Assembly (NCBI GenBank): GCA_017303795.1
Contig: JAFLBR010000018.1
Coordinates: 1-64,000 of the forward strand
Direction: 5' to 3'
From: Cytophagales bacterium
Lineage (GTDB): Bacteria > Bacteroidota > Bacteroidia > Cytophagales > Cyclobacteriaceae
Length of the DNA stretch: 64,000 bases
The notes under the pieces were generated by a model. That model was given only the letters and a program-made list of their open reading frames with translations. It searched no databases and was not told where the DNA came from. Position numbers and translations under genes: made by a program. Positions 1,595 through 43,869 of this stretch are shown one piece after another; positions within the stretch are counted from its first letter, which is position 1, and every line of letters starts with the position of its first letter.

Positions 1595-4204
1595 ATGAAG
1601 TTAAATCCACCAAAGTTAGCGAAGCGGTTACTGCATGAATTTCTGCGGCAGGATTTAGCCGAAGAAGTCCAGGGCGATCTGGAAGAGAAGTTTTATGTCG
1701 ATGCAAAAGTAAAATCAGCATTCCGCGCAAAGCTTAATTATTGGTTTCAGGTTTTAAACTACCTGCGTCCCTTCGCATTCAAAAAGAAAAGAGCACATCT
1801 TAATCAGTATGATATGTTTCAGAACTACTTCAAGATTGCTTCGCGCAATCTGTTAAAACAAAAACTCTATTCGGGAATTAACATTGCCGGGCTTACACTC
1901 GGGCTAACCTGCTTTATGGTTATTCTATTGTATGTGCAACATGAGTTTTCGTACGATAATTTTTATCCCAACACCAAAAGCATTTATCGCGTGTATCAAA
2001 AACAAGCGGGCAATGAGTTTATGGGCACTGATTACTTTGCAGTAACTCCGGCTCAACTGGCCCGTGTTATGATGGAAGAGTGCCCGGAAGTAACACATGC
2101 TACCACGGTGCAACGCACTTCCGGTTTGTTATCCCACAGCGAAGCAAACTTCTGGCAAGATGGCATTGCTGCCGATGCCGAGTTCTTCAACGTGTTTCGC
2201 ATTTCGTTTAATGAAGGTAATCCGCAAACAGCGTTAACCGATGGCCGAAGTATTGTGCTAACGCAAACATTAGCGCAAACTGTTTTTGGCGATCAGGATG
2301 CAATAGGCAAAGCATTTCGGTACCAGGGTGGCGAAGAAGATTTTACGGTTACGGGTATTATTCCCGATCCACCGGCAAATGCATCTTTTAAATATTCGTT
2401 TGTCATTCACTTACTCTATAGCGAGGGTTATGCAGAAGAAATGAAACGCTCGGGCTGGAACGGCAACTCATACTATACTTTTTTTGAGTTGGCGGAAACG
2501 GCTTCCATTCCGGATTTGGAAAATAGATTTGCAGCGCTTCTGAAAAAATATCAGTTGCCCGAAGACTATGCCGATTATCCGTTTAAGGATCAATACTTCA
2601 CGCAGTCGTTAACCGATTCATATTTTCAAGCAGGCGTTAACTTCGACATTGGTCAGAAAGGAAATCTGAAAGTTATTTATGCCTATGCAGCGGTTGCATT
2701 AATTGTGCTGTTGCTGGCGTGTGTTAACTATATGAACCTTGCGGTAGCGCGTTCGGTTAAGCGTGCCCGCGAGGTTGGGTTGCGTAAAGTAGTAGGTGCG
2801 GTACGCAGACAACTTGTTGCGCAGTTTTTAGGTGAGTCGGTATTGATAGCGTTGTTCGCATTGCTACTAGCCATCGGACTTACGTATAGTGTACTGCCAG
2901 CTTTCGCTAAAATTGTAGAGCGACCCGTTGAGTTTAATCTGCTTTCCAATCCGTGGATTGTACCAGCATTGTTGGCATTGGTGTTAGTGGTTGGTTTATT
3001 GTCGGGCAGTTATCCGGCACTTGCCATGTCATCGCTAAAACCGGTTGATGTATTGAAATCAAAATCGGATATAAAAATTTCCGGTTTCAGCCTGCAGCAG
3101 TTTCTGATTGTGTTTCAGTTTGTGGCTTCCATTGTGTTAATCATCAGCAGTGTGGTAATCTATCGCCAACTGAATTTTATGAAGAACAAAGAGTTGGGCT
3201 ACGATAAAGAAAATGTAGTTACCATCTGGATAAGAGATCGCCCCCTGCGCGAGAAGTTTGATGTGCTGGCGAACGAGTGGCTGCAACATCCGGGCGTAAT
3301 TCATGCTACTATGACTACCAGCCTTCCGGCCGATATCTCATCCAGTACGCTAATCAAAAAAACCGCAGCCGATAAAGATCAGCTTGCTATTTACCAGTGG
3401 TCGGTTGGTGCCGACTTTCTGAATGTATTCGGAATGGAGCTTGTAGCCGGGCGTACTTTTTCGGAAGAAATAAAATCTGATGTATCGCAAGAAAATGCCA
3501 TCATAAACGAAACCGCGGCTCGTGCCCTGGGCTGGACAGCCGAAGAAGCAATAGGAAAACAATTTGATCGCGATGGTGCCATAACCATTGTTGGCGTGGT
3601 GAAAGATTTTCACATGCTTTCCATGCACTTGCCCATTCAACCCTTAATGATTCGCTATGAAAATTTCTGGGGTCGCTTTTTTGCAATAAAAATTAAACCC
3701 ACCGAGGTGCCGCAAACCCTTAGTCATATTGATGCTGTGTTTAAGAAAAATTCAATCTATCCGTTCGAGTATCAATTCTTGAGTGATGAATACAATAAAC
3801 TTTATAACAGCGAACTGAAACTAGGCGAAGTGTTTGGATTCTTTACCATCACGTCTATCGTAATTGCTTCGCTGGGTTTGTTTGGCCTGGCAGCCTTTAC
3901 CGCGGGTCAACGCACCAAAGAAATCGGCATCCGTAAAGTGTTGGGCGCATCGGTGCGGCAAGTGGTGTTTATCTTATCAGAAAGCTTTGCGTGGCGAATT
4001 CTGGCCGCGTTTATTATTGCCATACCGATTGGCTGGTATGCCATGAATCTCTGGCTGCAAGACTTTGCTTACCGCATTGACATAGCATGGTGGATTTTTG
4101 CATTGGCTGGCTTGTCGGCTTTTTTATTAGCCGGTATTTCTATCGGCTATCAATCCATTAAAGCTTCGCTGGCCAATCCGGTAGATAGTTTACGATCAGA
4201 GTAA
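1595..4204 (+). CDS. MacB/FtsX-type permease with N-terminal prefix domain (copy 1)
   Basis: This 869-residue membrane protein has an N-terminal cytoplasmic segment of about 80 residues (LAEEVQGDLEEKFY motif), known as a permease prefix domain. A first transmembrane helix near residue 100 follows, then a large MacB-like extracytoplasmic domain, an FtsX block of helices around 350-490, a second extracytoplasmic domain, and a second FtsX block near 735-860. The motif KRAREVGLRKVVGA after the first block and RTKEIGIRKVLGA in the second are typical coupling segments of MacB-like permeases. No ATPase domain or neighbouring ATPase gene is present. It is the first of three tandem paralogs, with only 5 bp to the next. 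Substrate unknown; such permeases usually act in efflux or mechanotransmission. Confidence 0.88.
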   Translation: MKLNPPKLAKRLLHEFLRQDLAEEVQGDLEEKFYVDAKVKSAFRAKLNYWFQVLNYLRPFAFKKKRAHLNQYDMFQNYFKIASRNLLKQKLYSGINIAGLTLGLTCFMVILLYVQHEFSYDNFYPNTKSIYRVYQKQAGNEFMGTDYFAVTPAQLARVMMEECPEVTHATTVQRTSGLLSHSEANFWQDGIAADAEFFNVFRISFNEGNPQTALTDGRSIVLTQTLAQTVFGDQDAIGKAFRYQGGEEDFTVTGIIPDPPANASFKYSFVIHLLYSEGYAEEMKRSGWNGNSYYTFFELAETASIPDLENRFAALLKKYQLPEDYADYPFKDQYFTQSLTDSYFQAGVNFDIGQKGNLKVIYAYAAVALIVLLLACVNYMNLAVARSVKRAREVGLRKVVGAVRRQLVAQFLGESVLIALFALLLAIGLTYSVLPAFAKIVERPVEFNLLSNPWIVPALLALVLVVGLLSGSYPALAMSSLKPVDVLKSKSDIKISGFSLQQFLIVFQFVASIVLIISSVVIYRQLNFMKNKELGYDKENVVTIWIRDRPLREKFDVLANEWLQHPGVIHATMTTSLPADISSSTLIKKTAADKDQLAIYQWSVGADFLNVFGMELVAGRTFSEEIKSDVSQENAIINETAARALGWTAEEAIGKQFDRDGAITIVGVVKDFHMLSMHLPIQPLMIRYENFWGRFFAIKIKPTEVPQTLSHIDAVFKKNSIYPFEYQFLSDEYNKLYNSELKLGEVFGFFTITSIVIASLGLFGLAAFTAGQRTKEIGIRKVLGASVRQVVFILSESFAWRILAAFIIAIPIGWYAMNLWLQDFAYRIDIAWWIFALAGLSAFLLAGISIGYQSIKASLANPVDSLRSE

Positions 4205-4209
4205 CCACT

Positions 4210-6873
4210 TTGAAAAAACACAACTCCATACCGCCACTTCTTGCACAGCAACTATTAAAACGTCTGCTGCGAACTGAGTTAGCCGAAGAAGTTCAGGGCG
4301 ATCTGGAAGAGAAATTTTATACTGACTTAAAATCAAAATCAGCATTCAAGGCAAAGCTCTGCTATTGGATTCAGACGTTAAATTATTTACGACCGTTTGC
4401 ACTGCGCAAGCGGAAACAATCACATCATCATTTTGATATGTTCAGAAATTATTTTCGCGTGGGTGTGCGCAGCATGTTGCGTAACAAAACATTTTCGGCT
4501 ATTAATGTGTCGGGTCTGGCCATTGGCATTGCCTGTTGTGTGTTGTTGGCATTGTTTATACAGGATGAGCTTTCCTTCGAAAAACATTTTGCAGACCATG
4601 ACCGGATTTACCGGATAACCACCACACTTAAATCAGCCACCAACGAAAGTCAGTTGCAACGTGCCTCGCCTGTTATCGGGCCAACGCTGTTGCGCGAGTT
4701 TCCTGAACTGGAAAACATAGCGCGTGTGGTTAAAGACCTGAGTGCACCACAGCAGATTCTTACGCATCATGATCGCGCTTTTGCACAAAGTCGCGCCTAT
4801 CAGGTTGACTCTACTTTCTTTGAAATTTTTCCTTACGAGTTTAAAGCAGGTAATCCTTACACAGCATTGAAAGAACCGGGGTCTGTCGTATTAAGTGAAG
4901 CATTGGCTTATAAAATATTTGGCGATAAACCAGCATTGAATGAATTGCTGGGTATTCCAACCTTTTCGGATAGTGCGCTGTTGCGCGTAACCGGAGTAAT
5001 AAAGCAAACACAAAATCAATCGCATCTCGATGCTGATTTTTATTTCTCGGGTTTGGAGCAAGTGCTTGAACCGATTACCACCTGGGCAACAGGCAATTTT
5101 GTTTTTACTTACGTGAAACTAAAACCGGATGCCGATGTAAATCAATTGCTCGATAAGTTTCCGGGGTTGATGGCGGACTATGGCGATGAAGAAAACCGCG
5201 CGATGGGTCGTCAGAAGATTTTGGGATTGCAATCCCTGCAAGATGTTCATTTACATTCATCCCACCTTGATAATCAGTTTGAGTTGGGCACGCGCGGAAG
5301 CATTACGTATGTGTATCTCGCAGCCGCTATCGGTAGTTTGATTTTGCTACTGGCAGCAATCAATTTTATTAATCTTACTACAGCCAAAGCATCGCAACGC
5401 GCCCGCGAAATTGGTGTTCGAAAAACAGTTGGTGCTCATCGTGGCAACCTCATCGCCCAGTTCATGGGCGAATCAGTTGGCATTGCCTTGCTGGCCATGC
5501 TCATTGCTTGCGCATTAGTTTATTTGTCGCTGCCGCAGTTCAATCAGTTGGTTCAGAAAAATCTTTTCATCGGAAATCATAACTTATTTTTTCTGATCAA
5601 AAGTGTACTCGCGATAACGCTGATTACCGGTTTTATTGCCGGGGCTTATCCGGCTTTGTTCATTTCATCTTTTGATGCAATAAAAGTTTTAAAAGACAAA
5701 CATTTGCAATTGGGCTCATCGCATCTTTTACGCAAAGGATTAATTTCCTTTCAGTTTTCAATTTCGGTAATTCTGGTTTCGGGTATTCTGGTGGTGCAGC
5801 ATCAGTTGCATTACATTCAAAACAAACCGCTGGGTTTTGATGTAGCCGATAAAGTAATGTTGCCGCTGCGTACAGCCGAGGCTTCCACTCAATATGCCCG
5901 ATTGCGCGAAACGGTAAAAGATATTGCCGGAGTAAAAGCAGTAACGGCATCGTCTAACTCGCCATCCACACCACCCATAAGCGATTGGAGTTTTTATCCG
6001 ACAGGAAAAACAGAAGCCGATGCCATCAATCATTATATAGTTTCCGTTGATGAAAACTATTTTGAAATGTTATCCATCCAGCCGATAGCCGGAAGGGATT
6101 TTGTGTTTCCGGCCGATGGACAACGTGCGGTTAATGTTCCACAAAAAGCGATTGTTAACCAGGCCAGTTTAAAGAAGATGGGTGTAAAGATTGATCAGGC
6201 CGTGGGAACGCAATTAAAATTCGCCAGCACAGAATCGCTGTTCGAAATTATTGGTGTGGTGGAAGATTTTCATCAGTTCTCATTGCACAAAGAAATTACA
6301 CCTATGATTTTTCTGGCCTCAACTGATTCAGGCGCCTTCCGGCAAATGGTGGTGGCTATCGACAAACAGAATGCAGAAGATACGGTAACAAAAATCCAGA
6401 CGGCCTGGAAAGAACTTGTACCCGATACACCTTTTGAAAAGGAAATGTTAAGTGAGAGTGTAGGCAAGCAATATGAACGCGATCGTAACATGTCGGCACT
6501 GGTATTTAGCTCTACTTTACTGGCCGTTGTTATTTCTTGTCTTGGCTTATATGGCTTATCTGTTTTTCTGGCGGAGAAGCGGGTAAAGGAAATTGGCATC
6601 CGCAAAGTAATGGGTGCATCAGTAAAGCAAATTTTAGTTATGCTTACCAAAGAATATCTAAAAACAGTAGCCATTGCATTGGTCATAGGTATTCCGGTAA
6701 GTTATTTTCTGATGCAGCAATGGTTGCAAAATTTTGCTTACCGCGATAACCCCGGTGCGTGGTTGTTTCTGCTGGCAGCCGGTTTGTGCGTAGCGGTTTC
6801 GATGCTAACGGTTTTGTTTGAATCATTGAAAGCTGCGTTAACAAATCCGGTAAACAGCATTAAGGCAGAATAG
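4210..6873 (+). CDS. MacB/FtsX-type permease with N-terminal prefix domain (copy 2)
   Basis: This is an 887-residue paralog of the preceding gene with the same order of domains: prefix domain (LAEEVQGDLEEKFY near residue 30), first transmembrane helix near 105, MacB-like extracytoplasmic domain, FtsX block with RAREIGVRKTVGA, a second extracytoplasmic domain, and a C-terminal FtsX block with RVKEIGIRKVMGA. The start codon appears to be TTG at 4210, five bases after the previous stop. It starts in step with its paralogs there, and no in-frame ATG lies nearby. Tight spacing implies one transcript and translational coupling. No ATPase accompanies it. Substrate unknown. Confidence 0.87.
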   Translation: MKKHNSIPPLLAQQLLKRLLRTELAEEVQGDLEEKFYTDLKSKSAFKAKLCYWIQTLNYLRPFALRKRKQSHHHFDMFRNYFRVGVRSMLRNKTFSAINVSGLAIGIACCVLLALFIQDELSFEKHFADHDRIYRITTTLKSATNESQLQRASPVIGPTLLREFPELENIARVVKDLSAPQQILTHHDRAFAQSRAYQVDSTFFEIFPYEFKAGNPYTALKEPGSVVLSEALAYKIFGDKPALNELLGIPTFSDSALLRVTGVIKQTQNQSHLDADFYFSGLEQVLEPITTWATGNFVFTYVKLKPDADVNQLLDKFPGLMADYGDEENRAMGRQKILGLQSLQDVHLHSSHLDNQFELGTRGSITYVYLAAAIGSLILLLAAINFINLTTAKASQRAREIGVRKTVGAHRGNLIAQFMGESVGIALLAMLIACALVYLSLPQFNQLVQKNLFIGNHNLFFLIKSVLAITLITGFIAGAYPALFISSFDAIKVLKDKHLQLGSSHLLRKGLISFQFSISVILVSGILVVQHQLHYIQNKPLGFDVADKVMLPLRTAEASTQYARLRETVKDIAGVKAVTASSNSPSTPPISDWSFYPTGKTEADAINHYIVSVDENYFEMLSIQPIAGRDFVFPADGQRAVNVPQKAIVNQASLKKMGVKIDQAVGTQLKFASTESLFEIIGVVEDFHQFSLHKEITPMIFLASTDSGAFRQMVVAIDKQNAEDTVTKIQTAWKELVPDTPFEKEMLSESVGKQYERDRNMSALVFSSTLLAVVISCLGLYGLSVFLAEKRVKEIGIRKVMGASVKQILVMLTKEYLKTVAIALVIGIPVSYFLMQQWLQNFAYRDNPGAWLFLLAAGLCVAVSMLTVLFESLKAALTNPVNSIKAE

Positions 6874-6875
6874 CA

Positions 6876-9482
6876 ATGAAGCAGATAAGGCCACCAGCAA
6901 CTGCACAGAAATTCTTACAACGCGTGTTGCGTAACGAATTGGCCGAAGAAATTCAGGGCGACCTAGAAGAGAAATTTTATGAAGCGTGTAAAAACCAATC
7001 CGCTTTTCGTGCAAAGCTGAATTACTGGTATCAGGTTGTTAACTACCTGCGACCGTTTGCTATTAAGAAACTTAAAACGAATCCCTCTAACACTGGCGAT
7101 ATGCTACAATCGTATTTAAAAATTGGTTGGCGAAATCTGTTTCGCAATTCCACTTACTCCATAATAAATATCACCGGACTGGCGCTGGGCATGGCCGTGG
7201 CTTTGCTTATTGGCTTGTGGGTATTTGACGAATTGAGTTTCAATACATCATTTAAAAATTATAATCGCATTGCAGCTGTTTATCATCATATTGAATTTGG
7301 TGAGGACAAACTTACCATTGGTGATGCACCCGTGCCTTTAGGTACTGAATTAAAAACAACCGTAGCAGAGTTTGATGAAGTAGTAATCGCCACGTGGCAG
7401 AAGGAACATGTTGTAGATTTTGAAAACACACCCACCACCCTAAATGGTCTTTTTGTAGAACCCGCTTTTGCCGACTTGTTTTCGCTCGAAATGCACGCAG
7501 GCTCAGCGGCTGCCTTAAAAGAAATTCATGCGGTGTTACTTTCACAAAGCACAGCCGAAAAAATAATTGGAACGGATGCGGTTGGAAAAACCATTCGCTT
7601 AAACAACCGCGATAATGTGGTAGTGGCGGGTGTGTACAAAGATTTTCCCAATAATTCTGAGTTTGCTAACATTCAAATGTTGTTGCCCTTTAATTACTAT
7701 GTAGCTATGAGCGAAACTACCCAGCAACAATTAACCAACTGGGAAGATCTCAACTTTCAATGCTTTGTGTTGTTGAATGAAACGGCTTCGCTGGCAGTTG
7801 CAGAGTCAAAGATTAAAAATCTGCTTAACTCAAAAGGGTCCGATGATCTGAAAGCAATTAAACCCGAAGGTCTGCTATTACCGATGTCGCGTTGGCATTT
7901 ATACAACGAATATAAAAACGGTGTACCTATCGAAACGAAAGCAAACCTGATCTGGATGTTCGGTTCAGTAGGTGTATTTGTGCTATTACTGGCTTGCATC
8001 AATTTTATGAACCTGAGCACGGCACGTAGCGAAAGACGCGCACGGGAAGTAGGAGTGCGCAAAGTAATGGGCTCAGTTCGCAGCCAGTTGGTGAATCAGT
8101 TTCTGAGTGAATCGTTGTTGGTAGTGGTAGCTGCGTTTGTTATTTCCATGCTGTTGGTTTGGATATGTTTGCCGTGGTTCAACACCTTAACAGTAAAACA
8201 GATTACACTTCCGTGGAATAATTTATATTTCATAACGGCAACATTTCTCTTCATTATAACCACCAGTTTGCTGGCAGGTAGTTATCCTGCGTTTTATCTG
8301 TCGGGTTTTAATCCCGTAAAGGTTTTGAAGGGAACATTTAAAGTAGGTAAATGGGTAAAGCGCCCGCGGCAAGTGTTGGTTGTATTTCAATTCAGTGTGT
8401 CTGTTATTCTGGTACTTTGTACGGGTGTGGTGTTTCAGCAGTTGCAACATGCCAAAAACCGACCCGTTGGTTTTTTGCGCGAAGGCGTTTTCTTTGTTAC
8501 CATTCGTACGCAAGATCTTTCGCTTACCAATTATAATTCATTACGTGCCGATGTACTCGCCACGGGCCATATACAAAACATGGCTAAGTCTTATTTTCCG
8601 ATTACAGGCTCTATGGCAGCCGATGCTTCCATTACCTGGGATGGTAAAGATCCAGCCTCTCGTCCTTTAATTGCATTGAACAGTTGCTCGCATGATTTTC
8701 CCTCAACCAATGGATTTGAGTTTGTAGCTGGTCGCGATTTTTCACGTGAGTATAGTACCGATTCTACTGCGGTGGTTGTAAACGAAATGGCCGCAAAAAT
8801 TTTTGGTGATGATGTCATCGGCAAGAAGATAAGATTTGCCAGTGGCATAGAGCGCGAAATTGTTGGTGTGATTAAAGATCAGATTCGATGGTCGCCATTC
8901 ACTAACCAATCGCCACACATGTATTATGTAAAGTATGAAGAATATGGAACACTCACCTTTCGGTTGGCTGAGGGCGCATCTGCGCAAGCGGCATTGGCCA
9001 GTGTAAAAGAGATTATTAAAAAATACGATCAGGCCGCACCTTTCGAATACAAGTTTGTGAATGAAGATTACAACCGACTGTTTAATCATGAAGAACGAAT
9101 TGGAAAGCTGGCAACCATTTTTGCTTCGCTTGCTATCATCATTAGCGGTATTGGGTTATTGGGACTTTCGGCTTTTGCCGCCAGTCAGCGTACCAAAGAG
9201 ATTGGTATTCGTAAAGTGTTGGGCGCATCAGTGTTTCAAATCTGGCAACTGCTGTCGCAGGATTTTTTGAAATTGATTTTAATTGCGTTGCTGGTGGCCT
9301 TGCCATTGGGGTATTACCTGGCACATAACTGGTTACTTCAATATGAATATCGAACAGAGCTATCGTGGGGATTATTTGTGGTGGTGGCTATTGCGGCTGT
9401 GGTGTTAATGTTGGTTTCCATCAGCCATCAATCGCTAAAAGCTGCCAATAGCAATCCGGTTAATACACTTAAAACGGAATAA
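6876..9482 (+). CDS. MacB/FtsX-type permease with N-terminal prefix domain (copy 3)
   Basis: This third tandem paralog (868 residues) starts two bases after the previous stop. It again carries the prefix motif (LAEEIQGDLEEKFY), a transmembrane helix near residue 105, a MacB-like extracytoplasmic domain, an FtsX block marked by RAREVGVRKVMGS, a second extracytoplasmic domain and a final FtsX block with RTKEIGIRKVLGA. The extracytoplasmic domains differ clearly from those of copies 1 and 2 while the prefix and coupling motifs stay nearly constant. This suggests different ligands or partners but a common cytoplasmic partner. That partner, probably an ATPase, would have to be encoded elsewhere. 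Confidence 0.87.
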   Translation: MKQIRPPATAQKFLQRVLRNELAEEIQGDLEEKFYEACKNQSAFRAKLNYWYQVVNYLRPFAIKKLKTNPSNTGDMLQSYLKIGWRNLFRNSTYSIINITGLALGMAVALLIGLWVFDELSFNTSFKNYNRIAAVYHHIEFGEDKLTIGDAPVPLGTELKTTVAEFDEVVIATWQKEHVVDFENTPTTLNGLFVEPAFADLFSLEMHAGSAAALKEIHAVLLSQSTAEKIIGTDAVGKTIRLNNRDNVVVAGVYKDFPNNSEFANIQMLLPFNYYVAMSETTQQQLTNWEDLNFQCFVLLNETASLAVAESKIKNLLNSKGSDDLKAIKPEGLLLPMSRWHLYNEYKNGVPIETKANLIWMFGSVGVFVLLLACINFMNLSTARSERRAREVGVRKVMGSVRSQLVNQFLSESLLVVVAAFVISMLLVWICLPWFNTLTVKQITLPWNNLYFITATFLFIITTSLLAGSYPAFYLSGFNPVKVLKGTFKVGKWVKRPRQVLVVFQFSVSVILVLCTGVVFQQLQHAKNRPVGFLREGVFFVTIRTQDLSLTNYNSLRADVLATGHIQNMAKSYFPITGSMAADASITWDGKDPASRPLIALNSCSHDFPSTNGFEFVAGRDFSREYSTDSTAVVVNEMAAKIFGDDVIGKKIRFASGIEREIVGVIKDQIRWSPFTNQSPHMYYVKYEEYGTLTFRLAEGASAQAALASVKEIIKKYDQAAPFEYKFVNEDYNRLFNHEERIGKLATIFASLAIIISGIGLLGLSAFAASQRTKEIGIRKVLGASVFQIWQLLSQDFLKLILIALLVALPLGYYLAHNWLLQYEYRTELSWGLFVVVAIAAVVLMLVSISHQSLKAANSNPVNTLKTE

Positions 9483-38174: not shown

Positions 38175-38194
38175 AGGACAACAAATAGGCTTGC

Positions 38195-39520
38195 CTATTT
38201 GCCTACGCTGAATATTGAGTTAATTGCCTTTATTCGATCCATCAACAATTCATCTGCTTCATGAATATTCTCAAAAGTTATGTCGAGGTTTTGAACATGA
38301 ATAGTAATGTCCTCAGGTAAAAACTGCGAAGGAATTTGAAACGTTACTGGAGTATTTAATGCATTTTCTGAATGGGGATAGAGTAATAGAACATTTTTGC
38401 AGTTTCGTCTTAACGCATAACTCACCATCTGGTATAAATCATTTTGACTAACACCTGCTTTCAAGCCATCTGTTGTTCCCCTGATTTTATATTTTGTATC
38501 AATGATGAGTTTTTCATTGATGTAGATGTCGTTGCGGATTTGGAATACCTGTGAACCCTGATTTAGAGCAAGGTAGTCTGTACTTTGACTTCTGATATTT
38601 AATGCTTGCCACTTATCAGAAACAAAGCCAAAGATGAAGTCTTCAAAAATGTATTCCATCGGAACGAGGAAACAGAAGTTGCGACTGTCTTCTGAGTTCA
38701 TGTCAATCACTTGATTGGAAAGGTAGAGCTTACACAATTCGAGTATGTGCTTGTGGTCATCATACAGTGGATTTAATTTAACCTTTTCACAATCTTCTGC
38801 CGTACAAGGGACGTCTGATACATCATGTAGCAAAAAAAGTATCTCATTCAGTTTTTCTTTGTTCAGATAGTTTTCACTTATCGTTGTAAGCCTCTTTGTA
38901 ACGTATTTAATGATGCGGTTGAATTGATTGTCATATACAAAAGGTTCGTGTGTACAATAGACGTTTTGCCACTTGCCAGTTGTGAGATTATGCTTAGTGT
39001 AATTTTCAAAGGATAATCGACCCCTTAGAAACGCGGTTTCTTCCTCTACCTTTTGATATGCTTGAAAAGGTTGTTGTGAAATTATCTCTTCTGTGTAATT
39101 AGCAAAAACATAAATCAACAATTCGAGGTAGTCATCAAATTTGAGTTTCGTTACATCGGCAAAAGAGAAAGGGAATTTTATTTTACGGCAATAGGAGAGC
39201 CAGTACAACAAGTTGAGTTGCCACTTTTTTACATTCTCAGTTTCATCTTCTGCGAATATTTTGGGGTATACTTCAATACGAATACCTTCGTACTGAACAA
39301 CCCCAACATAGTTACGAGCTGATATTTTTCCATCTATAGTAAAGTCAAAGAAGCGTTGCTTCTGTATCTGCTGTTCTTGTTGCTCTTCTTCTGATACATC
39401 TTCTCCTGATTCGATATAGCGATTCCTATTTTGCCATACTCCGGAAAGGTATTCGACAAATGCGGGGATTGCATTTTTATGTCCCTCAAAGGATGCGCTA
39501 TGCCATTCAAATAATTTCAC
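38195..39520 (-). CDS. mcrC: McrC-family restriction endonuclease subunit (type IV, McrBC)
   Basis: This 441-residue protein is the nuclease and stimulator of an McrBC-type restriction system. The N-terminal part contains the family strand-helix core (FDFTIDGKISARNYVGVVQYEGIRIEVYPKIF, then LLYWLSYCRKIKFPF). The C-terminal PD-(D/E)XK nuclease core is visible as QIRNDIYINEKLIIDTKYKI near 360-380, with the catalytic Asp and the DxK pair. It overlaps mcrB by four bases (ATGA type), so the subunits are translationally coupled. It is expected to cut DNA bearing modified bases when bound to McrB. The region looks more AT-rich by eye than its neighbours, which fits horizontal acquisition. Confidence 0.92.
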   Translation of the reverse strand: MKLFEWHSASFEGHKNAIPAFVEYLSGVWQNRNRYIESGEDVSEEEQQEQQIQKQRFFDFTIDGKISARNYVGVVQYEGIRIEVYPKIFAEDETENVKKWQLNLLYWLSYCRKIKFPFSFADVTKLKFDDYLELLIYVFANYTEEIISQQPFQAYQKVEEETAFLRGRLSFENYTKHNLTTGKWQNVYCTHEPFVYDNQFNRIIKYVTKRLTTISENYLNKEKLNEILFLLHDVSDVPCTAEDCEKVKLNPLYDDHKHILELCKLYLSNQVIDMNSEDSRNFCFLVPMEYIFEDFIFGFVSDKWQALNIRSQSTDYLALNQGSQVFQIRNDIYINEKLIIDTKYKIRGTTDGLKAGVSQNDLYQMVSYALRRNCKNVLLLYPHSENALNTPVTFQIPSQFLPEDITIHVQNLDITFENIHEADELLMDRIKAINSIFSVGK

Positions 39521-42360
39521 TCAGCAATGATTTGAAAGTTTTCTTTGATGCCCGACTGTTTGATTGAGATTTTTGCTTCCGTCAGTATGCGTTTTACAGT
39601 ATCGGAGTTGTTTTGACAATACTCATAAAGAAGAGGGATTATTTTTGTGTTAAGTATTTTAACCTTATCAGATTCTGGCTTGTTGATAAAGAACGCATGG
39701 CCGATAAAGAAGTCGGGGTTTTTCTTCCAATTGTAGATTGCCTGATTAATGCCTTCGAGTAGTGCAGCCCACCATTCTGATTCTTTATATTCCGGATAAA
39801 GAGCTTTAAACTCAAAGCGTCTTCTCAATGCAATGTCTAATAGGGCTATTGAGCGGTCAGCAGTGTTCATTGTCCCGATTACATAGAGATTTGATGGCAC
39901 ACTAAACTTTTCATTGGAGTAGGGAAGTTCAACCCACATTTCATTATCAGCACCGATTCTTTTATCCTCTTCAAGTAGGGTTATTAATTCACCAAATACA
40001 GCCGAGATGTTTGCTCTGTTTATTTCATCTATGAATAGTGCAAACTGTTTTGATGTGTTTCCTTTAGCTTCAGCAAATTTGGCTACGCGATTTTCAACTT
40101 TATCCTGTTTACATTCTTCAAATGAACCATAGCCCACTAATTTCAATGCCTCTAAACAACTGTTATAGAAAATTCCCTTCTTAAGTTCAAATTGTAATTG
40201 ACCAACAGCTTCATCTACTTCCACCTCCTGAAGCAATGGTTTTATTCCTTCGATAAAGTCCTCATAGCTGTATTTCTGGTGGAACGTGATAAAATTGAAA
40301 CGTGCTTTTGAAATTGTGCTTTGAACTGGTTGTTGCTCTGGATGGGCAGCAATTCTTAAAAGCTCCTCTTCAACAATATTTACTATTTCCGCTTTTTTTG
40401 AATCAATAATTGCCCATTCACTATCCTGGTTTTTGTTAAATATCTGTAATGGTCCCCTATATTTTTCATTCATTTGTGATGAATCATAGTCCGCGTATGA
40501 TTGCAAAATTCTCCAGATTGTATTTTGAGGTGTCTTTGCTGTATCACTGACTTTAGCCTTTACTAATGGGTGCTCCATTATTTCTGCAACAGAACAATAT
40601 TTATTCTTTACGCTTAAAATTGCAGCAAATATTTTCCAAAAAGGATATGCTGATACCTTTTCTTTTAAGACCTCTACGGAGGTTTTCGTAATGCCTCTGT
40701 CTGTAAAGTATTCTTCTTTGTACTCGTTTAACTTGAATGTTTTCCCCGTACCGGGTGGACCATACAAAATGGTATTCATGAATACATCTATTTTCGTGCT
40801 CATATTCTGAGTGCTTTTTTCGATTAGTTTAAGAATGGTGTTATACTGTTGTCTTGTAGCTGAGAAATTGGTGCCCTGATTACCAACTTTTAAATCTTGC
40901 AAGCCATCTGTTTCTCTTATGATCTGCCAGAGAAGGGGCTTGGCTAAGAGATTATTCGTTATTTCAATTCCTGCCTTGATAGAATTCTTGTCTTCTTTTT
41001 TCCAAAGATGGCTATCGGGTGAGTTTGTTTTTTCTGCAGGGTCATCAGTTACCCTTGCTAATGCGTAGCAACCAGCCTTCTTGCCAGTAACCCACAGGAT
41101 TACTTTATCGCCTTTCTTTATTTTGTCTTTATGTGCAGCCACAGTCCAATCATGTAACAAATTGCTACGGACTGCTGCTTCAAAATCAAAATCAGATGGG
41201 TTGCATTGGAAAACCCAATAGTTAATGAATCGGTCATTCCAAATTGTTATTGCTTTGTGTCGAACGTATGGAACATTGACCCGACAAATTCCTTGTTGTA
41301 ATTGATATGTAAATACTTCATCTGGCTCTAATTCATACCATTCCGCTTTAGCGAACTTTACCCAAGGTTCATATTCAATTTCTTTGGTAGCAAAATCCTC
41401 TTCCAACTCTGATGCATCCGTTACCGACTTAGGAACCTCTAATACTTTTGCTAATGCCCGGACGGTATGGCCTTCGGTAACAACAATTAAATCGCCTGGT
41501 GAGTAAAGTTTATCTTCAACACCAATAACAATTGCCCGTTTTTTTATGAGTTCATAAAAGCTCGGCTTTTTGCTTCCCCACTGGCATCCTAATTTCCACA
41601 CATTTCCGCTTATACTGTTACTATTACCGAAGGCTTCTTCATATAGTTGACTTCTGTAGGTATTGTCGAAAATAGCTATTTCAAAAAGAGGATTGTTGTA
41701 TTTACGATACCCTGAAACTTCTGTGCGATTCAGTTCTCTTTGAGATGCACGGACAATACTGTCTATGTTGCTGATCATATCCGATGAATTGATGCAGCGG
41801 TAGAAATAGGCCAACGGTTCGTTCTCAAATTCAGTTACTTCAATATCATCGGTAGATTTTGCCTTTGCATCGTGTATGAATTGCCAAGGATGGTCATCTT
41901 TAGAAATGAAAGCAAAGCAATACCGCTGGCCTATAGTAATTGAAAGGCGCCTATTTCCTCTTGTACCATAAGTTAACCTTGTGTCACCTTGTGTAACTTT
42001 CAATTGTGACATTAACTGACTTGCACTATTAAAAAAAATTGTGGCGGATTCACGACCAATTCTTTTTATTAGTTCTATTAATTCAGCATTGGTAGCAGGG
42101 GGCTCAGGTATTTCCGTTTTAGGTTCAATTTTGAAACCAAATTCTCGTAAATACTTATTGGTTGGGTTGCCACCGGGATACGGCCATTTTTTTTCTCCAT
42201 TGGCTAAGAGGTTTGCATACCGCATAATTTCTTTTGGAGGATATGCCTTCTCATTTATAATGACATCAAACCTTGTTGATGGCCTTAGTTCAATCCCTTC
42301 TTGCTCTATTTTTTCAACGGCATCTAAAACATGCTTTTTTGTAATCTTATTGACGCTCAT
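39517..42360 (-). CDS. mcrB: McrB-family AAA+ GTPase with multi-module N-terminus including an EVE-type domain
   Basis: This 947-residue motor subunit belongs to a type IV restriction system. The C-terminal AAA+ domain has Walker A GPPGTGKT (about 534-541), TFHQKYSYEDFIEGIKP, Walker B ALFIDEINRANI and the McrB-type signature GTMNTADRSIALLD with ALRRRF sensor residues. The N-terminal 520 residues are unusual. Residues 1-80 (HVLDAVEKIEQEGI, YPPKEIMRYANLLANGE) resemble the head domain of ScoMcrA-type proteins. Residues 90-240 form an unassigned alpha/beta module, and 255-370 contain a PUA-like segment (WKLGCQWGSKKPSFYE, GDLIVVTEGHTVRALAKVL). Residues 380-515 match an EVE domain (YWVFQCNPSDFDFEAAV, GDKVILWVTGKKAGCYALARV), which reads modified bases. 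Several modification-reading domains in one protein are inferred. Confidence 0.92.
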   Translation of the reverse strand: MSVNKITKKHVLDAVEKIEQEGIELRPSTRFDVIINEKAYPPKEIMRYANLLANGEKKWPYPGGNPTNKYLREFGFKIEPKTEIPEPPATNAELIELIKRIGRESATIFFNSASQLMSQLKVTQGDTRLTYGTRGNRRLSITIGQRYCFAFISKDDHPWQFIHDAKAKSTDDIEVTEFENEPLAYFYRCINSSDMISNIDSIVRASQRELNRTEVSGYRKYNNPLFEIAIFDNTYRSQLYEEAFGNSNSISGNVWKLGCQWGSKKPSFYELIKKRAIVIGVEDKLYSPGDLIVVTEGHTVRALAKVLEVPKSVTDASELEEDFATKEIEYEPWVKFAKAEWYELEPDEVFTYQLQQGICRVNVPYVRHKAITIWNDRFINYWVFQCNPSDFDFEAAVRSNLLHDWTVAAHKDKIKKGDKVILWVTGKKAGCYALARVTDDPAEKTNSPDSHLWKKEDKNSIKAGIEITNNLLAKPLLWQIIRETDGLQDLKVGNQGTNFSATRQQYNTILKLIEKSTQNMSTKIDVFMNTILYGPPGTGKTFKLNEYKEEYFTDRGITKTSVEVLKEKVSAYPFWKIFAAILSVKNKYCSVAEIMEHPLVKAKVSDTAKTPQNTIWRILQSYADYDSSQMNEKYRGPLQIFNKNQDSEWAIIDSKKAEIVNIVEEELLRIAAHPEQQPVQSTISKARFNFITFHQKYSYEDFIEGIKPLLQEVEVDEAVGQLQFELKKGIFYNSCLEALKLVGYGSFEECKQDKVENRVAKFAEAKGNTSKQFALFIDEINRANISAVFGELITLLEEDKRIGADNEMWVELPYSNEKFSVPSNLYVIGTMNTADRSIALLDIALRRRFEFKALYPEYKESEWWAALLEGINQAIYNWKKNPDFFIGHAFFINKPESDKVKILNTKIIPLLYEYCQNNSDTVKRILTEAKISIKQSGIKENFQIIAE

Positions 42361-42423
42361 AATGCCTAATTCAAATTCATTTTACTTTGAGTTGGAATTT
42401 TTTTGTTAAAGACTTACTCCAAC

Positions 42424-43869
42424 TCACTTCTTCCCAACCGGTGGTGGGCCATCGGGAATCAAACCTTTATACACATGGTCGCCTTTGCCTTTTGTAAACT
42501 CAGCTTTAACAGCTTCTAATTTTTTCGGGTCTTCGTATAAATCCACCATCGTCATGGCTAACGTTTTAGATGCATGCAACATGCCTTTATGTCCAATGGA
42601 CATACCACCGCATGCTACCACCGCCCACGAGTGCCACGGAGTACCAATAGGTGCCGTAGCTACACTTAACCGAATGGTGGGCACAACCCAACTTACATCG
42701 CCCACATCGGTTGAGCCACCACCAGCATTGGGATTAGTTTCTTCCAACGGTTCTACTTTGGTATGTAAACCCACCAAGGGTTTGCCCGTACTCTCCTGTA
42801 TCTTTTTCGCGAAAGCAACTTCTTCATCGGTATAACTCATCGGCCCCAGCAGGGCAAAATTTTTGGTAACATAATCGGCACCCGTGCGGTTAACCAACAC
42901 TTCGTAAATACCGGAGACAAGCGAAATCTTATATTCCACATTCGCCATGATAGCCGCACCTTCGGCCATTTTCTTTACACGTTCATACACTTCATTCATG
43001 CCATCGCGCTTTACATCGCGCACGCGTACCCATAAGCGCGAGTAATCCGGAACCACGTTCACTACTTGCCCGCCATCTTGTATGTGGTAATGAATGCGCA
43101 CACTGGGTTTAATATGCTCACGCAGATAGTTGATTCCGGTTGTATATAACTCCAGCGCATCGCTGGCACTTCTTCCATTCCACGGATCGCCTGAAGCATG
43201 TGCAGCCTGGCCATTAAACTCTACAATAAAATCAACCAATGCCAAACCGGTTTGCACCGCAGCTTTGGTTTCCGCACCGGGGTGCCAATCCATTACTACA
43301 TCCACTCCGTTAAACAACCCCGCACGAATCATCCACAGTTTACCAAAGAATTTTTCTTCGGCCGGTGTGCCGAAAAATTTAATAGTGCCTTTCAGTTTGC
43401 CTTGCTCGATCAATTGTTTGATGGAAACCGCAGCGCCCAAACTGGCAGTGCCAAAAAGATTATGACCACAACCATGACCAGGCTCGCCTTCATGCAAGGG
43501 ATCTTTTACCGGAACTGTTTTTTGTGAGAGACCGGGCAACGCATCAAACTCACCCAGTATTCCAATTACCGGACTGCCGCTACCATACGTAGCTACAAAG
43601 GCAGTAGGCATTTCGGCTACACCGCGCTCCACTTTAAAACCATTGGCTTCGGCATAATCGGCTAATAGTTTTGCCGATGTGTGTTCATTGAAAGCGGTTT
43701 CTTCTGCGGCCCAGATTTTATCGCTGATGCTGATCAGGTTGGGCGCTTGTGTTGTAACGTTTTCGATGATGGCTTTTTTATTAGCCGTGATAACAGGCGC
43801 AGCTTGCTTTTTTTGTGCGAACACATTCAGTGTTACACAAAGTGCGGTGAGTAAGGTTAGGATTTTCAT
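42424..43869 (-). CDS. M20-family amidohydrolase (AbgB-like), exported
   Basis: This 481-residue protein starts with a signal peptide (cleavage near VFAQK). It continues as an M20 peptidase/amidohydrolase with GILGEFDALPGLSQ near 105, the metal-binding GEPGHGCGHNLFGTA near 130-144, GTPAEEKFFGK near 166 and a dimerisation lid (about 200-320). GGGSTDVGDVSWVVPTI with the late ligands lies near 385. The pattern is closest to aminobenzoyl-glutamate hydrolase subunit B-type proteins, which cleave amide bonds of acylated amino acids. The substrate here is unknown. It reads with the PIG-L deacetylase gene upstream, separated by 20 bp. Confidence 0.88.
   Translation of the reverse strand: MKILTLLTALCVTLNVFAQKKQAAPVITANKKAIIENVTTQAPNLISISDKIWAAEETAFNEHTSAKLLADYAEANGFKVERGVAEMPTAFVATYGSGSPVIGILGEFDALPGLSQKTVPVKDPLHEGEPGHGCGHNLFGTASLGAAVSIKQLIEQGKLKGTIKFFGTPAEEKFFGKLWMIRAGLFNGVDVVMDWHPGAETKAAVQTGLALVDFIVEFNGQAAHASGDPWNGRSASDALELYTTGINYLREHIKPSVRIHYHIQDGGQVVNVVPDYSRLWVRVRDVKRDGMNEVYERVKKMAEGAAIMANVEYKISLVSGIYEVLVNRTGADYVTKNFALLGPMSYTDEEVAFAKKIQESTGKPLVGLHTKVEPLEETNPNAGGGSTDVGDVSWVVPTIRLSVATAPIGTPWHSWAVVACGGMSIGHKGMLHASKTLAMTMVDLYEDPKKLEAVKAEFTKGKGDHVYKGLIPDGPPPVGKK

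Follow-up and report, generated by a model that had tools for sequence, protein, structure and literature searches.

A McrBC pair from a Cytophagales bacterium whose McrB carries four N-terminal modules and an insert in its AAA+ motor

Phages evade restriction by hypermodifying DNA. How Type IV restriction enzymes might widen their reach is the question raised by a locus in a 64,000-nucleotide stretch of Cytophagales bacterium DNA (contig JAFLBR010000018.1, positions 1 to 64,000; hereafter the window), in which an McrB protein bears a string of modules ahead of its motor. An initial annotation of this DNA had placed an McrBC-type defence locus at 38195-42360, and both open reading frames (ORFs) lie at these positions with the expected domains. 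The preferred reading, to which we assign a probability of about 0.7, is NxxD-type McrBC Type IV restriction in which exchangeable modules would set substrate choice, with an EVE domain as one reader and a module termed M3 as a second. On this view the pair is probably a multi-reader enzyme that restricts DNA according to its modification.

Both ORFs lie on the minus strand, overlap by 4 bases and form a canonical McrBC pair. The mcrB gene (39517..42360) encodes 947 amino acids, arranged as head, M2, M3, EVE and an AAA+ GTPase with an insert, and mcrC (38195..39520, GTG start) encodes 441. Pfam finds AAA_5 and EVE in McrB and PF10117 in McrC (6.9e-67). The NCBIfam matches, PRK11331 McrB for McrB (2e-32; 112.5 against a required 637 bits) and PRK09736 McrC for McrC, fall below cut-off. 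PDB sequence searches return McrB structures for McrB and one McrC, 6ut5 (2.6e-10), for McrC. Among PADLOC models, McrB matches two of REase_II (2.4e-14 and 3.6e-11, through the AAA part) and IetA (1.1e-4), and McrC matches none; against PHROGs, the best match of the locus proteins stands at E 0.025 or worse.

The motor motifs of McrB are all intact, namely Walker A (GPPGTGKT, residues 534-541; 40738..40761), Walker B (FALFIDEINRAN, residues 773-784; 40009..40044) and the NxxD GTPase signature (NTAD, residues 832-835; 39856..39867). McrC carries a nuclease-type motif, NDIYIN...IIDTK. Across seven aligned McrCs, the D...D-T-K positions are common to the window and to the related loci L092, L104, L094 and L051, and the same position reads DAK in L095 and DIK in L102. 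We take these residues to be the catalytic positions of a PD-(D/E)xK nuclease. The presence of NTAD places McrB on the NxxD side of a published division that defines the signature (PMC11090510). That motif also leads us to reject a CoCoNuT identity, and an RNA-targeting, CoCoNuT-like McrBC system is very improbable. CoCoNuTs do possess YTH-like domains of the EVE superfamily (PMC11090510), but the GTPase motif here is NxxD rather than NxD, McrC retains its nuclease-type motif, and Pfam finds no HEPN or Hsp70 domain in either protein.

In the window McrB, 533 residues precede Walker A, close to the 520 or so first estimated and likewise divided into four stacked modules. These are the head (residues 5-81; 42118..42348), M2 (95-245; 41626..42078), M3 (252-377; 41230..41607) and EVE (380-512; 40825..41223). 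Comparison with relatives supports this division and indicates that the four are genuine separate units, because relatives hold them apart, reordered or minus one. Three genome sets supplied relatives, with 58 related genomes, 395 from the phylum and 395 from the class (the class searched with M2-M3). Six further loci came from one pattern scan of genome contigs, and module instances were called by iterated profiles (22 distinct heads, 13 M2 and 11 M3, the window included). The set is biased, since it was collected with the window protein's own modules, and the count of four-module genomes is a lower bound, since the contig scan used two short patterns.

The order head, M2, M3, EVE occurs in the window and in at least four other Bacteroidota genomes. 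These are a Flavobacteriales metagenome-assembled genome (MAG; L092, of which L101 is a copy), a Chitinophagaceae MAG (L102), a Bacteroidia MAG (L093, the same as L103), whose contig ends inside EVE, and Pinibacter soli (L104), whose frame is interrupted after EVE and before the AAA+ part. The Pinibacter soli mcrB (L104:6737-9567) consists of two overlapping ORFs, which may reflect a sequencing error, decay or a true split. Other relatives show natural deletions and rearrangements. L050 and L094 hold head, M3 and EVE without M2, and L095 and L105 hold M2, M3 and EVE with no head in the ORF (for L105 this concerns its own ORF, a separate upstream head ORF having been considered only at 100 amino acids or more). 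L051 (the same as L106) has head and M2, L100 has EVE followed by M2, and L056 and L057 carry head, M2 and EVE with other sequence in between. M2 is the only one of the four modules in L065 and L070, as is M3 in L096 and L097, and L075 and L076 place the head before MrcB_N and an AAA domain. Contig ends cut off the ORFs of L058, L093, L096, L098 and L105. Beside the McrB of L050, the ORF matching McrC (L050:136-510) has only 124 amino acids, so McrC there looks truncated or broken.

The modules also occur outside McrB. M3 stands ahead of GmrSD_N/GmrSD_C in L099, and the head stands ahead of HNH_2 in L079 and L125; the remainder of L079 matches VcaM4I at 2.5e-87, which makes it a VcaM4I-like EVE-HNH enzyme bearing a head. 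Among the 395 phylum genomes, the M2 profile matches nine and the M3 profile two, the window genome included in each case. Long stacks are common in this biased collection, where at least 400 residues precede Walker A in 14 of 23 distinct McrBs. This count starts from 26 proteins with both the Walker A and TFHQ patterns, less the copies L101 and L106 and the broken L104; L056, L057, L095, L097 and L105, among others, fall outside the 26.

Evidence on what the modules might do begins with EVE, whose identification as an EVE-type domain is confirmed by PF01878 (2e-10; 41.2 bits, cut-off 23; residues 380-511). It carries GNQG at residues 493-496, and the EVE profile of the window family finds the solved protein 2ar1 (1.8e-4, PDB). 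M3 had been described as PUA-like. A model of head, M2 and M3 was built from a 7-row alignment of the window and the contig-scan loci (mean predicted local distance difference test score, pLDDT, 79.5; predicted template modelling score, pTM, 0.48). In a Foldseek search of PDB its best match is VcaM4I (2.4e-3), followed by ScoMcrA chain 5zmm_B and, for the most part, by YTH domains, an ASCH domain also appearing among the best 50 of 229 matches; the other two Foldseek searches gave the best 50 of 110 and of 207. In the viral library, ASCH, EVE and DUF3850 proteins are among the matches listed, none at 1e-3. Lengths and secondary structure suggest that the VcaM4I and YTH matches belong to M3, and these weak matches point to an EVE/YTH-type PUA fold. 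A weak hhalign comparison agrees (M3 against VcaM4I-type EVE, P 0.021), on a scale where the window-family EVE against VcaM4I-type EVE gives P 0.015. A Q/G motif (QQGIC; RQGTF in L099) that by eye resembles the GNQG of EVE closes the majority of M3 rows, and in VcaM4I, Q128 fills the gap left by the flipped base (PMC7897488). The PUA-like description is thus favoured by fold and profile, both weakly, whereas Pfam EVE is matched by none of the 11 M3 members. Sequence matches of M3 in PDB (0.99 or worse) were treated as chance.

M3 abuts EVE (residues 377 and 380), and the two occur together in the window, L050, L092, L094, L095, L102, L104 and L105. This arrangement would suit one composite reader of a bulky hypermodified base, or of two spaced modified bases under AND logic. 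Such a composite seems unlikely, however, as M3 stands without EVE in L096, L097 and L099, and EVE without M3 in L052-L055, L058 and L100.

The head and M2 are harder to place. The first segment had been called ScoMcrA-like, and this holds for fold in a limited way. Foldseek matches the head-M2-M3 model to ScoMcrA 5zmm_B (E 4.3e-3, prob 1.00; matched range unreported), and lengths and secondary structure weakly support assigning this match to the head; ScoMcrA is absent from the seven sequence matches of the 22-row head profile in PDB up to E 10. The window head has no Pfam match and other members only scattered ones (E 0.01-0.23), and the best PDB sequence match, TFIIS at 0.082, was treated as chance. 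M2 is an alpha/beta module with AlphaFold2 block-mean pLDDT of 64-95, except 43 at residues 171-180. The window M2 has no Pfam match, only single-member matches (E 0.036-0.25) appear across its 13 members, and Pfam, profile and PDB comparisons yield no convincing known relative. An assignment of M2 to the McrB N-domain MrcB_N/DUF3578 did not stand up, as this family is matched by none of the 13 M2 members and by hhalign only at P 0.62 (3-row MrcB_N set). Comparisons of M2 with M3 (P 0.58) and with VcaM4I-type EVE (P 0.43) were also negative, and a match to the designed propeller 8prj (2.2e-4) was treated as chance, no stretch being significant alone. M2 and M3 are two module families without a model in the Pfam copy searched.

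A fifth module, missed by the initial annotation, lies within the AAA+ domain as an insert of about 105 amino acids. It was located from the spacing between Walker A and the TFHQ strand and annotated at residues 564-685 (40306..40671). Of 24 distinct McrBs, eight (window, L053, L054, L067, L092, L100, L102 and L104) show a spacing of 153-159 residues, and the remaining 16, which lack the insert, one of 23-58; the 24 are the same 26 proteins minus L101 and L106, copies of L092 and L051. The eight inserts align as their own family, for which Pfam returns one chance match (0.096), and a PDB sequence match to 1pbj (0.014) was likewise treated as chance. Its model shows helices and two short strands (block-mean pLDDT 37-81). 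Forkhead winged-helix chains are among the Foldseek matches listed for the AAA+ model (E 0.96-1.8, prob 0.30-0.41), a list that serves only as a hint, since that model is poor overall. The insert is possibly winged-helix-like. Inserts in McrB GTPases are described as frequent and "likely encoding specificity domains" (PMC11090510).

Taken with family membership, which is the ground for assigning Type IV restriction to an McrB ring with McrC, these data suggest a mechanism. McrB would form a GTP-driven AAA+ ring, presumably a hexamer, with McrC as its stimulating subunit and PD-(D/E)xK nuclease, and substrate choice would fall to the row of exchangeable modules that precedes the motor. EVE would flip out and read a modified base, probably 5-methylcytosine (5mC) or 5-hydroxymethylcytosine (5hmC), because the VcaM4I EVE domain flips these bases (PMC7897488). 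M3, as a second divergent EVE/YTH-type PUA domain, would probably also read a modified base, and M2, the head and the possibly winged-helix-like insert could, less certainly, act as accessory DNA-contact or specificity modules. We infer both the recognition of modified DNA by several modules and its cleavage by the pair. ScoMcrA (SBD and SRA-like; PMC6224610) and HHPV4I (SRA and winged helix; PMC10101028) are earlier examples of enzymes with two sensor-type modules.

Exchange of modules between motors is suggested by identities that do not run in parallel. Between the window and L092, identity is 78% for the head, 54% for M2, 57% for M3, 73% for EVE, 83% for the motor core and 74% for McrC. 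Against L050 it is 65% for the head, 60% for M3, 65% for EVE and 50% for the motor core, and against L094, 66%, 52%, 66% and 49%, with 39% for McrC. The window M3 is equally near L050 (60%) and L092 (57%) despite motor cores at 50% and 83%, a discordance that would fit exchange. The stronger evidence for exchange is the variety of module combinations on related motors, and the occurrence of M3 with GmrSD as well as with McrB suggests that Type IV readers are drawn from a common pool.

Several points weigh against this account. The discordance concerns M3 alone, as the head and EVE are nearer L092 (78% and 73%) than L050 (65% each), and modules may simply differ in evolutionary rate. None of the 229 PDB Foldseek matches (E up to 10) reaches 1e-3, their ranges are unreported, and hhalign pairs M3 with the window-family EVE only at P 0.049. 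The winged-helix reading of the insert comes from a model of mean pLDDT 47 and weak forkhead matches, and hhalign does not support HARE-HTH (P 0.21, 3 rows) or DpnI_C (P 0.17, 2 rows) as its identity. Moreover, HHPV4I does not owe its activity to its SRA (PMC10101028), which implies that not every module has to be a reader.

The same HHPV4I result favours a simpler scheme, in which EVE, perhaps with M3, is the sole DNA reader, the head, M2 and insert are structural, regulatory or involved in oligomerisation, and specificity is of an ordinary single type. We hold this somewhat short of even odds. It gains from the fact that EVE is the sole N-terminal module of the window McrB with a Pfam match, from the flexible ScoMcrA head, whose function is described as unknown (PMC6224610), and from other McrBs in the set that lack the insert or have different N-termini. 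It loses because the head and M3 also occur on HNH, EVE-HNH and GmrSD nucleases, where an McrB-specific structural role is unneeded, and because modules are present, absent or reordered across related motors. An extension of the multi-reader account would treat McrB as a combinatorial chassis whose exchangeable modules, as many as five in each subunit and thirty in a presumed hexamer, recombine among McrB, GmrSD and HNH enzymes. One nuclease could then sense several modifications or a combination, and the in-motor module could gate GTP hydrolysis on DNA contact; this we consider doubtful. The relatives, being natural deletions or swaps of head, M2, M3 and insert on related motors, make each module's contribution directly testable.

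The window pair is a richer version of a known McrBC design, not a new kind of system, given that EVE-McrB proteins with extra domains and McrB inserts are already published. According to Bell et al. 2020 (PMC7641849), no EVE defence fusion is commoner than EVE-McrB, which spans nearly 300 genera, is abundant in Bacteroidetes and often has additional domains; fusions of EVE to GmrSD homologs are noted as rare. The EVE-McrB proteins share with the window an EVE on an McrB GTPase with McrC, whereas the window adds head, M2 and M3 ahead of EVE and an AAA+ insert. The architecture is therefore partly characterised, at family level (PMC7641849, PMC11090510), but no description of the exact module order, M2 or M3 was found in searches of, and passages from, open-licence PubMed Central papers. 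The McrBC systems of E. coli K-12 and T. gammatolerans, the best PDB sequence and fold matches, likewise combine an NxxD AAA+ GTPase with McrC, but have one N-terminal reader each (DUF3578/MrcB_N and YTH-like, respectively) in place of four modules and an insert. VcaM4I, the top match listed for the head-M2-M3 model and linked through the head-bearing L079, differs as an EVE-HNH enzyme whose nuclease has no motor, and its profile link to M3 is weak. ScoMcrA (head-SBD-SRA-HNH), the second Foldseek match, also sets a small head before two reader-type domains, but has HNH where the window has an AAA+ motor. The biochemically uncharacterised NTD-wH-NTPase/McrC fusions (PMC11037411) pair an McrB-like NTPase and winged helix with McrC, whereas in the window the possible winged helix is embedded in the AAA+ domain, downstream of Walker A, and the 2-row comparison found no DpnI_C similarity.

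The genomic site fits horizontal gain of the pair, a proposal that draws on AT-richness, empty sites in congeners and a single carrier among the same-genus genomes compared. Among 35 mechanically selected window ORFs of at least 250 amino acids, the two genes have the lowest GC content (0.367 and 0.377; the other 33 have mean 0.434, standard deviation 0.020 and minimum 0.379), in agreement with the AT-richness first noted. Within the same set, McrB has the lowest GC at third codon positions (0.336; next 0.343) and McrC the highest codon distance (0.121), whereas the codon distance of McrB (0.088) is not outlying. No mobile-element gene stands alongside, also as first noted; the neighbours encode a molybdopterin-binding oxidoreductase and an M20 peptidase. 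The pair occupies the stretch between the ends of these two convergent genes (38175..42423). Six congeners were compared, chosen from those that matched best when 40 same-genus genomes were searched. Measured between aligned flank ends, the gap is about 56 bases in G024, 74 in G018 and 415 in G034, and by this comparison the site is empty in G024 and G018. Other genes fill it in G027, suggesting that the chromosomal site may be variable, and G008 and G009 have a different left neighbour. The G027 genes (L123:4668-8141) were named by eye as TPR-like, AraC-like and a third ORF. Among 36 same-genus genomes, the full protein occurs only in that of the window, with partial matches in G015, G020, G024 and G030.

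Type I genes accompany some relatives, an association that published work reports for the E. coli McrBC branch (PMC11090510). In L102 co-directional Type I S and R genes come before the pair, and in L101 an R gene does; upstream in L104 are genes for an HsdM-type N6_Mtase and a helicase. The window pair has no Type I gene as a direct neighbour. Directly after the L101 pair lies a Piwi-domain (Argonaute-type) gene of 686 amino acids (L101:6669-8729; PF02171, 4e-13). The window genome holds a second McrBC pair (L068:5130-8881) with an McrB of 837 amino acids, in which module profiles and spacing detect no head, M2, M3, EVE or insert. A phage origin found no support, in that phage records gave no match to the N-terminal 525 residues at E 0.01 and two viral-contig scans with a few 7-8-residue patterns found no relative.

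Three minor observations were made by eye. Between the stop codon of the M20 peptidase gene and the start of mcrB, two 9-base arms (42388-42396 and 42418-42426) make up an inverted repeat that is a possible terminator or regulatory hairpin. Another 9-base inverted repeat, at 38182-38201 over the mcrC stop and between convergent genes, is a possible bidirectional terminator. Elsewhere in the window, three successive plus-strand ORFs of 868-887 amino acids (1595-9482) have similar N-termini, as tandem paralogues would.

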